In this document: positions 9,557 through 24,988 of the stretch, one piece after another
How positions within the stretch are numbered: the first letter of the stretch is position 1
Layout: the number at the start of each line of letters is the position of its first letter
Source: Synechococcus sp. SB0668_bin_13
GTDB lineage: Bacteria > Cyanobacteriota > Cyanobacteriia > PCC-6307 > Cyanobiaceae
NCBI GenBank assembly: GCA_009836025.1
Contig: VXWH01000020.1
Coordinates: 1-32,131 of the forward strand
Length of the DNA: 32,131 bases
Direction: 5' to 3'
Translations under genes and position numbers: made by a program
The notes under the pieces: generated by a model
Told to the model about the DNA's origin: nothing
The model's input: only the letters and a program-made list of their open reading frames with translations
Database searches by the model: none

Positions 9557-10264
9557 ATGAGCTTTTCTCAGACCGCATCCCCCAGCCGTCCGTCTGGAAA
9601 CGTGACCGATGCGATTGCTGGGGGAACGCTCACCACAATTATCCGCTGCCTCTCGGGCAGTTCCCTGGACCTGGTGGAGCGTGGGAAGACCATTTTCCTT
9701 CCTGGCGATCCTGCAGAGCGGGTCTATCTGTTGCGGTGCGGCGCGGTGCGCCTCTCCCGCGTCTATGAAAGCGGAGAGGAGATCACCGTGGCGCTGCTGC
9801 GGGAAAACAGCCTGTTCGGGGTCCTCTCTCTGCTGACTGGCCACCGCTCGGACCGCTTCTACCACGCTGTTGCCTTTACCCGTGTGGAAATGATTTCCGC
9901 ACCGGCCACATCCGTACGTCAGGCCATTGAGGGGGATGCCCGGGTGGGCTTGATGATGCTGCAGGGCCTGTCCTCCCGGGTCCTGCAGACGGAGACCATG
10001 ATTGAAACCCTCACCCACCGGGATATGTCATCACGACTGGTGAGCTTTTTGCTGGTGCTTTGCCGCGACTTTGGCGTTCCAGCGGAGCAGGGCATCACCA
10101 TCGATCTACGGCTCTCCCACCAGGCCATTGCCGAGGCCATTGGCTCTACCCGCGTGACCATCACCCGCCTGCTGGGGGACTTGCGCAACGAGGGGATGCT
10201 CAGAATTGACCGGAAGAAAATCACGATCTTTGACCCGGTGGCCCTCTCACGTCGGTTCAGTTAA
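9557..10264 (+). CDS. ntcA: Global nitrogen regulator NtcA (CRP/FNR family)
   Basis: Effector domain [53 protein letters not shown] and [31 protein letters not shown] at 9557 chosen over the longer ORF start. Confidence 0.95.
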
Positions 10265-19205: not shown

Positions 19206-19814
19206 TCAACTGGATAGCACAAAGTCATTGAGATAGGGAAGCCGTAAGGCGGTCCGCTGCAATTCATCTCCATGGCTGAGCAGGAGGCCTGTCCCATCCC
19301 AACCACCATTCAGGAGCATGGTTTGCGGGCCGCTCTCGATCATCAGGGGCCAATGGCGGTCCGGCCCACGGAGCCTGGGCGCAGCAAGCGTGAGGCAAAA
19401 ATGAACGCCGGGCTGCTCCTGCACCAGTTGCTGGATGTCTTCAACTACCCCTGTCTCTCCCCTCAGACAGGGCATGCCCAGGGCAAGGCAATTGCTGGCA
19501 AAAATCTCGGCAAAGCTCTCGCCAATCACAGCGGCAATGCCCCAGCGGCGCAGGGCCTGGGGGGCATGTTCACGGCTGGAGCCACAGCCAAAATTGCGGT
19601 TGACCACCAAAATCCTGGCCCCCTGATGCTCGGGGCGATCAAAGGGATGGCATCCCCCTGCTGCGGCCCGGTCATCGGCGAAGACATGGTTGCCCAGCCC
19701 GGTAAAGCTGATGCTTTTCAGGAACCGGGCTGGAATGATGCGATCCGTGTCGATGTCATGGCCCTGGAGGGGGATCGCCTTGCCCTCCACCATGGTGACG
19801 GGGGCCGGCGTCAT
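19206..19814 (-). CDS. leuD: 3-isopropylmalate dehydratase small subunit
   Basis: [16 protein letters not shown] and [35 protein letters not shown] are diagnostic of LeuD. Confidence 0.97.
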
Positions 19815-21253
19815 GATTCGGCAGGCGCCGTTCCGGCGTCCTTTGCGCTGCTCAGCAGGGTGCGCACGTCGGTGACAACACCGCTGACTGCAGCAGCAGC
19901 CACCATGGCCGGACTCATCAGCAAGGTGCGGCCGGACGCCGAGCCTTGACGCCCTTTGAAATTCCGGTTACTGGAGCTGGCGCTGAGTTGGCGCCCCTCC
20001 AGCCGGTCCGGGTTCATGGCAAGGCACATGGAGCAGCCAGGCCGGCGCCACTCAAACCCCGCCCGGGCAAAGACGGCATCCAGGCCCTCCGCCTCCGCAG
20101 CCCGGGCCACCTGTTGAGAGCCGGGGACCACAAACGCTTTCATGCCGTCGGCCACATGGCGGCCCCTGGCCACCAGAGCCGCATCCCGTAGATCACTGAG
20201 GCGGCCATTGGTGCAACTGCCGATGAAGCAAACATCCACCGGCGTCCCCGCAATGGGCTGCCCTGGTTGCAGATCCATGTAGCGATAGGCTTCCTGCGCA
20301 AGGGGCCGCTCCCCGGCAGGCAGTTGATCCGGTGTGGGAACGGCCTCGTCCACAGCCATGGCCTGCCCCGGCGTAATGCCCCACGTGACGGTGGGTGCGA
20401 TCTCCCCGGCATTGATGGTCACCTCGTCGTCATAGACGGCATCCCCGTCACTGGCGAGGCTGCGCCACCAGGTGACGGCACGCTGCCACGCCGCCCCCCG
20501 AGGGACACAGGGCCGATTGTGGAGATAGTCAAAACACACCTGATCGGGATTGACGTAGCCACAGCGCGCTCCCGCTTCGATGGCCATGTTGCACAGGGTC
20601 ATGCGCTCCTCCATGGCCATGGCCGCAACGCAACTCCCGGCAAATTCATAGGCATAGCCAACGCCGGATTTCACGCCGAGACGGCGGATGACGTGCAAGG
20701 CCACGTCCTTGGCGAAGACACCAGGGGCGAGGGCGCCGTGAATGGAAATCCTGCGCACGCTCAGCTTATCCAGGGCCAGGCTTTGGCTGGCCAGCACGTC
20801 ACGAACCTGGGTGGTGCCGATGCCGAAGGCAATGGCGCCAAACGCGCCATGGGTGGAGGTGTGGGAATCGCCGCAGGCAATGGTCATGCCCGGCTGACTC
20901 AATCCCAATTCCGGAGCAATCACGTGGACAATGCCCTGTTGGCCGCTGTCGAAGCCATAAAGCCGCAGGCCGTAGTGGGCGCAATTCTTCTCCAGGGCGC
21001 TGAGCATGGCCTCCGCCAGAGGATCGGCCAGGGGACGGCCCTGGTCGGTGGTGGGGACAATATGATCCACCGTGGCCACGGTGCGCTCAGGATGACGGAC
21101 GCCGAGACCCCGCTCCCTCAGCATGGTGAACGCCTGGGGACTGGTCACCTCATGGATGAGGTGCAGGCCAATGAACAACTGGGTCTGGCCACCCGGCAAC
21201 TCCGCCACCCGATGCAGCGCCCAGACCTTGTCATAGAGCGTGCCTGTGCTCAA
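19811..21253 (-). CDS. leuC: 3-isopropylmalate dehydratase large subunit; in-frame extension possible to 21412
   Basis: LeuC-like from [42 protein letters not shown] with TTG at 21253. [12 protein letters not shown] and [10 protein letters not shown] carry the Fe-S ligands. The frame stays open upstream through a methyltransferase-derived segment to 21412. Confidence 0.95.
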
Positions 21254-21301
21254 GGGGGATCGTCCTGCAGCGAAGGGGGAACCACAACCAAGGCTAGCAT
21301 C

Positions 21302-21412
21302 AAAGCCGCCCACACCGTAGGCGCCATCGGACACGATGAGATCCGGGGGATCCCATGTGCCGTACACCTCCTGGGCCGGTCCCGGATGCAACGTGCTCAG
21401 CCCCCTGGACAC
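21302..21412 (-). pseudogene. 5' fragment of the adjacent methyltransferase gene, in frame upstream of leuC
   Basis: Encodes [37 protein letters not shown], identical except one residue (N to D) to the N-terminus of the 22559..23590 methyltransferase. Confidence 0.93.
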
Positions 21413-21627
21413 GGCAAACCAACTGCCAACTGCTCAGTAGAAGTGTACTTGTTCCCGGCAGAGTCAATGATCGGGGTCGAGTGAACACGGATTCCCATGG
21501 CCAGTGAAACCGCAACGGGTGACGTGCATTCCGGCCTGACTCTGGAGGAGGCTGGGGCGCAACTGACCACTGCCGTCACCAGGTTGTCTCCCCCCTTCCC
21601 CTGGGCGGCGCTGCCTGGGGATGCCGT
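21302..21627. repeat. Long direct repeat copy A (~326 bp, partner 23480..23805)
   Basis: Direct alignment at constant offset 2178 with no indels. I count 5 mismatches in the 312 bp core 21306..21617. Contains the methyltransferase 5' fragment, spacer and cca 5' fragment. Confidence 0.97.
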
Positions 21628-21673
21628 GAGGGGAAGTTATTCTACCGGAACCACTCGACAATTCGAGAGATGA
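21497..21673 (+). pseudogene. Truncated copy of the cca 5' end (58 aa ORF)
   Basis: MASETATGDVHSGLTLEEAGAQLTTAVTRLSPPFPWAALPGDAVRGSYSTGTTRQFER. The first ~40 aa match the intact cca at 23675 before the sequences diverge. Confidence 0.93.
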
Positions 21674-22554
21674 CTTCGGCAAAGTCGGCTGGCACATCCT
21701 CGTTCACTCCCCTCTGTCGCAAGTCCCGTTCCAGGCTGGCGAGCATCTTGTCTGGGTCTTTTGCCTCCGCATGTCGCTTGAAAAACACGATCCAATGATC
21801 AGCCGGAATCCCGGCGATCCGTTGTGCCCGCAAGGAAGACGTGTAGTCGTCCATGAGACCAGTGATCCGTGCGATGCGACCGAAATTCCCCCCTCCATCA
21901 TTATCGGGCTGATCAGCAATTCTTGCCTTGGGTGGGGGGTAAGGACTGACCTGCGTATCTGGTGGACTGGACCAGTCGTTGGTCCAACGTGTCTCTCGTC
22001 CTCCTTTCATTCGTCCAAAACCAGTTGCGCAATTCGGCCACATGGCGAGCTTGCTCAATGTAGGGCTTGTAAACCACAGGCTCTCCCGACAAGACGTTTT
22101 TGAGGTGCCAGGGAACGACGACCAGCAGATCCTGGGGAGCGCAAGCGGAAGGTGTCACCTTGTACCTGAAGCTGGGCTCCCCTTCTTTGGATAGGAGATA
22201 CCATCCCTTGAGTTCGATGCCGAGGGCAATATGGGGATGCTTGTCTTTGCCATGGGCGACCAACCTCACATCCGGGAAGGTTTGCGCTGAGCGCACAAAT
22301 CGGTGACGCGGCCAACGGTTGTCGGGATCCCAGACCTCCCGGATCCGATTGAGGGTTTCAACCACCTGGACCTCAATGGCGCTGCCCAGAACAGCGCTGA
22401 GGTTAAACATCTCGCCTCCCTCGAGGCCTTCGATTCGGGTTGCCGTTTGGAAATACGCCGGAAGGGCGCTGAGTGCATCTCTCACATGACTGACAAGCTC
22501 TCGCTCAGGGCTGTGCAGCTCCTGTCGTCGTGGCTGTGGGTTGTCCATCGGCAT
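21642..22554 (-). pseudogene. Probable PD-(D/E)XK restriction endonuclease, frameshifted near 22000-22010
   Basis: The 213 aa ORF has FPDVRLVAHGKDKHPHIALGIELKGWYLLSKEGEPSFRYKVTPSACAPQDLLVVVPWHLKNVLSGEPVVYKPY, with PD and ELK placed as in a PD-(D/E)XK core. The overlapping ORF 21642..22058 supplies a plausible C-terminus in another frame. Begins 4 nt after the methyltransferase stop. Confidence 0.7.
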
Positions 22555-22558
22555 GACG

Positions 22559-23590
22559 TCACACCTTTAGCGGTAACTGGTCACCAGCAAACTGGTTGGT
22601 CAGGCGCTGTTTTGCCAGTGCCGAGAAGTAGGGGTTGGGTTCGGCGGCACAGGCATTCCGACCGGTCTCAATCGCCGCAACCGATGCAGTGCATAGCCCG
22701 CCGAACGGTTCCCAGATTGTGTCGCCCTCGTTTGAGGCCACCTTGATGATGCGGCGCATGAACTCCAGAGGCTTCTGATTCAGGTGTGCCGCTGCATTCC
22801 TCCCCGGGTTATGGACTCGGGGAGCAACGCGACGGCCGTCACCCCGATAGCGCTCTGCACCGTTCAGGGGCGGATGGGACCAGACATTCGTCAGGCCGTG
22901 CTCGTGGTGCCATGGGTGGCGGAGCCGCGCCCACTCCGCTTCAGTCACAGGTTGCTTTCCGTCAATCGCGTAATAGGGTCGTCCTGCCGGGTCACCGTGA
23001 TCGTTGGCGAAGGCAACCAGCCGGACCATCATCTCCGCGGGTGGGAAGTACCAGAGCCAGTCCTGGGTGAGATACTTGCGGGTTGCAGCGTTCTTGACCC
23101 CACATGCCTCGTTGGCGCGATACAGGGGTAGTCCGGTCCGCCGCCATTCCACACGCAGCCAACGGCAGAGAGGCATCCTGCCGACTGGAGTCTTCAGCAC
23201 CAGCCGTCGCCGATAGAAGGCGCAGATTTCCGTAACCGTCGGCAGCCGGCGAATGGTGTCCCCGTTCACGTTGCCTGCGATATGGCCAACGCCTTTGTCC
23301 CACAGAATCGTCTGGACGTATTCCCAACCTTCCCTTGCCAGAAGGGGATGGGTGGTTGCCCAGCCAATCTCGGTGTTCCAGAACCACAACGTGGTGGCCG
23401 GGTGTGCGAATTTCGACCACGCTGCCACATGTTCGGCATACCACCCTTCCAATCCCTCCGGAGTGCGAGGATCGCCCGGAAACCCGCCCACACCGTAGGC
23501 GCCGTCGGACACGATGAGATCCGGGGGATTCCATGTGCCGTACACCTCCTGGGCCGGTCCCGGATGCAACGTGCTCAGCCCCCTGGACAC
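22559..23590 (-). CDS. DNA methyltransferase of a restriction-modification system (beta-class-like motif order)
   Basis: N-terminal [18 protein letters not shown] (motif IV position), C-terminal LNQKPLEFMRRIIKVASNEGDTIWEPFGGLCTASVAAIETGRNACAAEPNPYF (motifs X and I). GTG start. Confidence 0.9.
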   Translation of the reverse strand: MSRGLSTLHPGPAQEVYGTWNPPDLIVSDGAYGVGGFPGDPRTPEGLEGWYAEHVAAWSKFAHPATTLWFWNTEIGWATTHPLLAREGWEYVQTILWDKGVGHIAGNVNGDTIRRLPTVTEICAFYRRRLVLKTPVGRMPLCRWLRVEWRRTGLPLYRANEACGVKNAATRKYLTQDWLWYFPPAEMMVRLVAFANDHGDPAGRPYYAIDGKQPVTEAEWARLRHPWHHEHGLTNVWSHPPLNGAERYRGDGRRVAPRVHNPGRNAAAHLNQKPLEFMRRIIKVASNEGDTIWEPFGGLCTASVAAIETGRNACAAEPNPYFSALAKQRLTNQFAGDQLPLKV

Positions 23591-23805
23591 GGCAAACCAA
23601 CTGCCAACTGCTCAGTAGAAGTGTACTTGTTCCCGGCAGAGTCAATGATCGGGGTCGAGTGAACACGGATTCCCATGGCCAGTGAAACCGCAACGGGTGA
23701 CGTGCATTCCAGCCTGACTCTGGAGGAGGCTGGGGTGCAACTGACCACTGCCGTCACCAGGTTGTCTCCCCCCTTTCCCTGGGCGGCGCTGCCTGCAGAT
23801 ACCGT
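23480..23805. repeat. Long direct repeat copy B (~326 bp, partner 21302..21627)
   Basis: Same alignment as copy A. This copy is continuous with the intact methyltransferase and the intact cca. Confidence 0.97.
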
Positions 23806-24988
23806 CCTGGTGGGGGGTGTTGTTCGTGACGCCTTGCTGGGGCGCCTCAGGGACAACCCTGACGTGGATCTGACCGTTCCCCGGGGGGCAATCCATCTTT
23901 GTCGGCAGTTGGCCGGCCGCTGGGGGGGCACGGTGGTGGTGTTGGACCCGGTGCGTGACATGGGGCGCCTGGTCCATGGTCCCTGGACGGTGGACGTGGC
24001 GGCCTGGAACAGCTCCACCATGGAGGCGGACCTGTGGCGGCGGGACTTTTCCCTCAATGCCATGGCGTATCACCTGAAGCAGCGGACGTTCCACGATCCC
24101 TGTGGCGGCCTGCAAGACCTGGCCCGGCGGCGGCTGCGCTGTGTGGCTGCCGCCAACCTGGCGGCTGATCCCTTACGGGTGTTGCGGGCCTATCGCCTGG
24201 CTGCCGAACTGGGATGCACCATCGAGGGGCGCACCCGTCAATGGCTTCAGCAGGTGGCGCCCAAACTGGGCATGGTGGCTTCCGAGCGGGTCCTGGCGGA
24301 ACTGGAGCGCCTCTGTCGGGCGGCCCAGGCCCATCACTGGCTCCTTGAGACAGGCACTGCTCTGGGGACCTGGCTCCCCATGGCGCGACCGTGGCCAGGC
24401 CTTGGACGCCTTAGCCATCAACTGGCCCTGGCTGTGGGACTGGAGGGAGAGTCCTTGACGCGCCAGTTGGCCTTGGCCCGGCTGGCGGGGGTCCTGGGGG
24501 CACAATCCGTGGTGGAACGCCTGGGCTGCAGCAGGCGCCGGCAACGGCAATGGCAACGGCTCCACCATTGGCGTCAAGTGTGGGCCGAAGCAACGGCGGG
24601 ACTGACGGAAGACCAGCAGCTTCAGCTTCATCTGGACCTGACGACAGACCTCCCAGCGCTCCTGCTGGTTCTGCTGGCCCACAACCAGTTGCCCCTGAAA
24701 CAAGCCAGGCTTTGGCTGTGCCGCTGGCAGGATCCTGCCGACCCTCTCTGCTATCCCCGCTGCCCCCTTGGCGGTCATCGCTTGCAAGAGGCCCTGTCTG
24801 TATCACCCGGTCCCCAACTGGGGGCATTGATGGCGTTTCTGCGGTGCGAGAGTGCCTTCGGGCGCTTGGCCGTTGATGATGAGGCGTCCATCCTGGACAG
24901 CGCTCGACAATGGCTGCAACAGACAGGGCTGCAACAGACAGCCTCTCCCCGGCAGGCGCCCCGTCGGAGCAAGCCTGATTCACCTTGA
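23675..24988 (+). CDS. cca: CCA tRNA nucleotidyltransferase / poly(A) polymerase family
   Basis: VLVGGVVRDALLGRLRDNPDVDLTV, DVAAWNSSTMEADLWRRDFSLNAMAYHLKQRTFHDPCGGLQDLARRRLRCV, RVLRAYRLAAELG. Confidence 0.95.
   Translation: MASETATGDVHSSLTLEEAGVQLTTAVTRLSPPFPWAALPADTVLVGGVVRDALLGRLRDNPDVDLTVPRGAIHLCRQLAGRWGGTVVVLDPVRDMGRLVHGPWTVDVAAWNSSTMEADLWRRDFSLNAMAYHLKQRTFHDPCGGLQDLARRRLRCVAAANLAADPLRVLRAYRLAAELGCTIEGRTRQWLQQVAPKLGMVASERVLAELERLCRAAQAHHWLLETGTALGTWLPMARPWPGLGRLSHQLALAVGLEGESLTRQLALARLAGVLGAQSVVERLGCSRRRQRQWQRLHHWRQVWAEATAGLTEDQQLQLHLDLTTDLPALLLVLLAHNQLPLKQARLWLCRWQDPADPLCYPRCPLGGHRLQEALSVSPGPQLGALMAFLRCESAFGRLAVDDEASILDSARQWLQQTGLQQTASPRQAPRRSKPDSP

Follow-up and report, generated by a model that had tools for sequence, protein, structure and literature searches.

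Relics of a predicted restriction-modification insertion at ycf34/cca in the Candidatus Synechococcus spongiarum group: probable amplification and rearrangement

To our knowledge, the present picture of how restriction-modification (RM) units that lack a transposase enter and leave chromosomes comes largely from inference in a small number of genera, Helicobacter among them. RM insertion with a long target duplication of variable length is attributed to Nobusato et al. 2000 and to Furuta, Abe and Kobayashi 2010, as these papers are cited in PMC3031569 and PMC3874152. Similarly, the tandem multiplication of an RM gene complex lying between direct repeats (Sadykov et al. 2003) is described in PMC3031569, and genome rearrangement linked to RM genes, by inversion or translocation, is described in both PMC3031569 and PMC3874152.

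The mechanism is already known from Kobayashi and colleagues; what the present locus adds is an unusually complete set of states. Within a single genus, the same site can be seen empty, inserted, truncated, as a tandem remnant and rearranged, and the target duplication is directly readable, a concrete series on which RM insertion, amplification and loss can be tested. Like the units with long target duplications, the locus has no visible transposase, directly repeated target DNA on a scale of about 100 bp and an empty site in relatives; it differs in that the focal repeat is larger and contains methyltransferase coding sequence, and in that one original flank, ycf34, has moved away. The structure fits unequal crossing-over between flanking repeats, as in the tandem multiplication of Sadykov et al., but here there is a truncated remnant of the extra copy and no array. 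Breakpoints at the RM locus in the focal genome (G000) and in two of the nine relatives compared (G006 and G009, of G001 to G009) resemble RM-linked rearrangement, although the partners differ (leuC; a multicopy repeat and the ruvX region; carboxypeptidase Taq) and, in draft genomes, the type of event is open to several readings.

The window is the whole stretch that was analysed, 32,131 nucleotides, and corresponds to contig C166 of the G000 assembly, a 2.16 Mb draft in 201 contigs. Its nearest relatives live in sponges as symbionts and belong to the Candidatus Synechococcus spongiarum group. The present order is leuC - M' - spacer - cca' - R - M - spacer - cca, where R is an endonuclease gene, M a methyltransferase gene and M' and cca' are partial copies. 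leuC (19811-21253, minus strand; TIGR00170/PRK05478) has its probable own start at a TTG at 21253; its open frame runs past this start through M' to 21412, giving a 533-aa reading frame in which homology to leuC of relatives starts at residues 45-53. Codons 1-37 of M' are in frame with leuC (window 19811-21412), a fusion that is probably due to chance, because relatives also have long upstream frames. No transposase is visible between leuC and cca, and between the repeat copies there is no insertion sequence (IS), the open reading frames there being R and M only, in agreement with the earlier note, which had seen no transposase.

That note had also described a direct repeat, and its description holds. 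Copy A (21302-21627) and copy B (23480-23805) align without gaps at an offset of 2178, with five mismatches in a 312-bp core (21306-21617). Over all 326 positions there are nine mismatches (21305, 21326, 21352, 21533, 21558, 21598, 21618, 21619 and 21623; 97.2% identity), the longest identical run is 180 bp (21353-21532), and the match far exceeds chance. Each copy comprises, on the minus strand, M codons 1-37, then the spacer and, on the plus strand, cca codons 1-44. In copy A these are M' (21302-21412, minus strand) and the target-duplication segment cca' (21480-21627, plus strand; pseudo start at 21497), joined to leuC on one side and to the 3' end of R on the other. Only copy B extends into an intact M (22559-23590, minus strand; 343 aa) and an intact cca (23675-24988, plus strand; PF01743).

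M belongs to the N6_N4_Mtase family (PF01555). Its relatives at 74-86% are Gammaproteobacteria, Acidobacteriota and Verrucomicrobiota MAGs, more distant ones occur in Actinobacteria and cyanobacteria, and in many of 80 loci, from several phyla, M is accompanied by an adjacent R of about 300 aa. A homologue at 57% identity is also present in the Mycobacterium phages Xavia and Tortellini (NC_051740.1 26921-27910). The focal R (21642-22554, minus strand) is split into two open reading frames by a frameshift near 21962, which had previously gone unremarked; its homologues in other phyla are a single frame of about 300 aa. R has no match in Pfam, NCBIfam or PDB sequence and a weak PADLOC match to REase_II. 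The residues P95-D96 ... E115-L116-K117 are invariant in 18 homologues, so R fits a PD-(D/E)XK nuclease, and the AlphaFold model (pLDDT 89) weakly resembles EcoRV and SwaI. We therefore treat R as a predicted PD-(D/E)XK nuclease, and R and M as a predicted Type II RM pair that is not intact in both parts in the focal genome. We also looked for inverted repeats of the kind that bound transposon-like RM units; the ends of this unit gave only an 8-bp match, which is not convincing, and the idea was rejected.

The earlier note had placed the RM locus between leuC and cca. Outgroup synteny points to another original neighbour: in 22 of 22 outgroup loci from the same family the neighbour of cca is ycf34, transcribed divergently and at a variable spacing, and leuC-cca was accordingly rejected as the ancestral order. 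In the sponge clade the start codons of ycf34 and cca overlap in CATG (L143 10509-10512; L147 8035-8038). Two relatives, G002 and G008, have empty sites, colinear through ycf34-cca-rbp with nothing inserted. G003 reads cca - spacer - M - R - cca' - ycf34. A segment of 169 bp from the empty site, of which about 30 bp belong to ycf34 and 138 bp to cca, has one match on each side of the RM genes; the exact limits of these alignments are uncertain by a few bases, and we therefore give the target duplication as about 165 bp. G003, set against the empty sites, directly shows that the RM pair entered the shared start of ycf34 and cca with a target duplication of that length.

The duplication preserves one intact 5' end for each gene, that of ycf34 in the far copy and that of cca in the near copy, and the 82-aa ycf34 aligns over its full length in the site comparisons of G001-G005 and G008. 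Far copies are shortened in G000 (on contig C4), G004, G005, G006, G009 and G001; in G001 a far-copy stump is left and both RM genes are decayed. In the window, comparison with relatives places the near copy, made up of what is left of the ycf34 start and of the cca 5' end, at 23658-23812 (plus strand). The RM-side spacer between M and this copy lies at 23591-23657, from comparison with G003, G004 and G009: its first 39 bp are common to G003, and all of it is common to G004 and G009. The A/B repeat takes in 111 bp of M and the RM-side spacer, and is not a target duplication alone. The previous view that target duplication is not the whole explanation is sound for the M part; the cca part, in contrast, is a genuine target duplication of about 165 bp, as G003 shows against G002 and G008. 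Membership of the known target-duplication family applies to the original insertion and not to copy A.

The cca 5' end is present in three copies in G000. An intact ycf34 lies on contig C4 together with about 70-80 bp of far-type cca' that differs from both A and B, which rules out copy A as the original duplicate. For the same reason, that the original far copy sits on C4, we rejected copy A as an original far copy homogenised with B. The boundary between copy A and R is identical to that between the far copy and R in G003 and in the R stump of G006; leftward from R come cca', spacer and M', which is the order expected of a second tandem unit, cut at M codon 37. Head-to-tail RM units are seen as remnants only, namely M' in G000 and, in G004, an extra 97-bp M fragment (codons 145-180; L145 4340-4436) between R and the far cca', which suggests former tandem units there as well. 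A and B differ by 2.8%, whereas M differs by 10.9% between the sister genomes G000 and G009; unless the copies have been homogenised, the duplication therefore seems to postdate the split of these two species.

The link to leuC has a different origin. leuC adjoins a neighbour that we call Y in eight of the nine relatives, on other contigs (with a Type ISP gene between the two in G006 and G009), and in G007 it adjoins other sequence that is neither Y nor M; adjacency of leuC and cca was seen in the focal genome alone. In G000, Y is on contig C99 and continues into sequence that is IS-like by eye, which indicates that the leuC-Y link is truly broken. The leuC/M' junction (21302-21309) shows microhomology of 6-8 bp: GCGGGTTT is common to M and to the region upstream of leuC, over 8 bp in G002, G004 and G008 and 6-7 bp in G003, G005 and G007, and the focal junction copy has one changed base. 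The chance of such microhomology is about 0.002 for at least 6 bp and about 0.0003 for at least 8 bp. The leuC adjacency thus appears to be a secondary rearrangement through this microhomology.

We consider the best explanation, with a probability of roughly 0.7, to be an old RM insertion at ycf34/cca, followed by tandem amplification and by a break in the first M that was rejoined upstream of leuC. A Type II R and M pair inserted in an ancestor of Candidatus Synechococcus spongiarum, duplicating about 165 bp of target, a step that the comparison of relatives shows. The two target copies may then have recombined unequally in the focal lineage to give a tandem array of the form ycf34 - far copy - R - M - spacer - copy A - R - M - spacer - copy B/cca. 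A later break in the first M, at codon 37, would have been joined to the region upstream of leuC at the short microhomology, giving two products that are both seen today: leuC - M' ... cca here, and ycf34 with a diverged far copy elsewhere. Of the two scenarios in the earlier note, tandem duplication followed by deletion in the first copy fits best and is largely supported; the leuC adjacency is, however, secondary and the insertion is not recent. With M open and R frameshifted, the repeats are a relic of RM entry, amplification and disruption rather than parts of a working device. Against this explanation, a full tandem array was not found in any genome compared, and the missing remainder of the first M is absent from the G000 assembly. 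In addition, the eight A/B differences outside the junction are unevenly distributed: about seven seem to have arisen in B and one at most in A, which is unexpected under simple duplication and equal drift. Strain mixture in B or conversion may be the cause.

Could the structure have arisen otherwise? The second scenario in the earlier note was that a circle of R - M - spacer - cca', formed when target copies recombined, integrated through a single crossover into a pre-existing leuC - M' - spacer - cca. The final structure would be the same, and direct repeats flanking the RM genes would permit such a circle to form, but the required leuC - M' - cca, and any M remnant at leuC, are present in none of the relatives, where leuC has the neighbours given above; we regard circle entry as unlikely. 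Still less credit can be given to an artefact of assembly or strain mixture, at the leuC/M' junction or between the copies. Such an artefact is suggested by the 201-contig draft and by the 180-bp run that the copies share, both of which also weigh against the best explanation, as well as by the concentration of derived changes in B. Nevertheless, the nine A/B differences lie on both sides of the identical run, the R/target boundary recurs in other assemblies, and both original partners were assembled and are joined to other sequence (ycf34 on C4, Y on C99).

A further alternative touches the history of the site and can hold alongside the account of the focal genome that we favour: G002 and G008 may never have had the RM genes, and the other lineages may be independent insertions at the same site. 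Among carriers, M gives a star-like tree that departs from the species tree, which leaves room for exchange or separate entries. However, the carrier M genes form one clade (100/100), the target boundaries coincide and the outgroup G001 has an RM remnant. In the cca-rbp and leuCD trees, both rooted on G001, the empty-site genomes also nest inside the carriers, with carrier G004 (100/100). Independent entry is improbable on this evidence, and the nesting favours clean loss. One old insertion and one clean loss would be the shortest account on the trees; recombination between the target copies could have produced the loss, but exchange with an empty strain would look alike, and the star shape of the M tree keeps it from strengthening this account. 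R is broken in six of six carriers and M is intact in G000 and G004 only, and the RM pair accordingly appears old and decaying. Recent mobility, as the earlier note had entertained, is not supported given an old insertion and an R broken in every carrier, although the A/B pair itself is younger.

A plausible reason for the target duplication is that ycf34 and cca both have to remain intact. More tentatively, and with considerable doubt on our part, divergent genes with one shared start may select for duplication: only insertions that copy both starts would survive, and the repeats would then provide a route to clean loss (G002/G008), amplification (G000, G004) and recurrent breaks (G000, G006, G009). 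If this is general, long RM target duplications would be a survivorship effect of dense, start-overlapping sites and not a property of an insertion enzyme. In an open-access literature search we found no account of an RM target duplication with overlapping genes; nor did we find a target that is a gene pair sharing a start codon described, and the reading as a survival condition is one that we infer.

Breaks at the site recur. Throughout the clade of G000, G006 and G009 the ycf34 side and the R side are separated, differently each time. In G006, ycf34, the far copy and a 3' stump of R are followed by carboxypeptidase Taq and a recR-like frame. In G009, R is followed by a multicopy 205-bp repeat and, beyond it, by the ruvX region, and the ycf34 side of the broken far copy runs into a truncated Type ISP gene, a C-terminal domain gene (L202 893-1735) that abuts it. 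The 205-bp repeat (G009 L148, about 9934-10139) has no Pfam match and by eye resembles an outer-membrane barrel fragment; it has many copies across these genomes and is possibly coding. Separately, the ends of two G006 contigs (L149 7542-7914 and L150 1-374) have 373 bp in common, 99% identical, from the 3' end of cca and the start of rbp. The Type ISP RM gene between leuC and Y in the same two relatives encodes 1159 aa (G009 L165 5921-9400; G006 C33 6655-10095), and occupies the same intergenic spot at which leuC meets M' in the focal genome.
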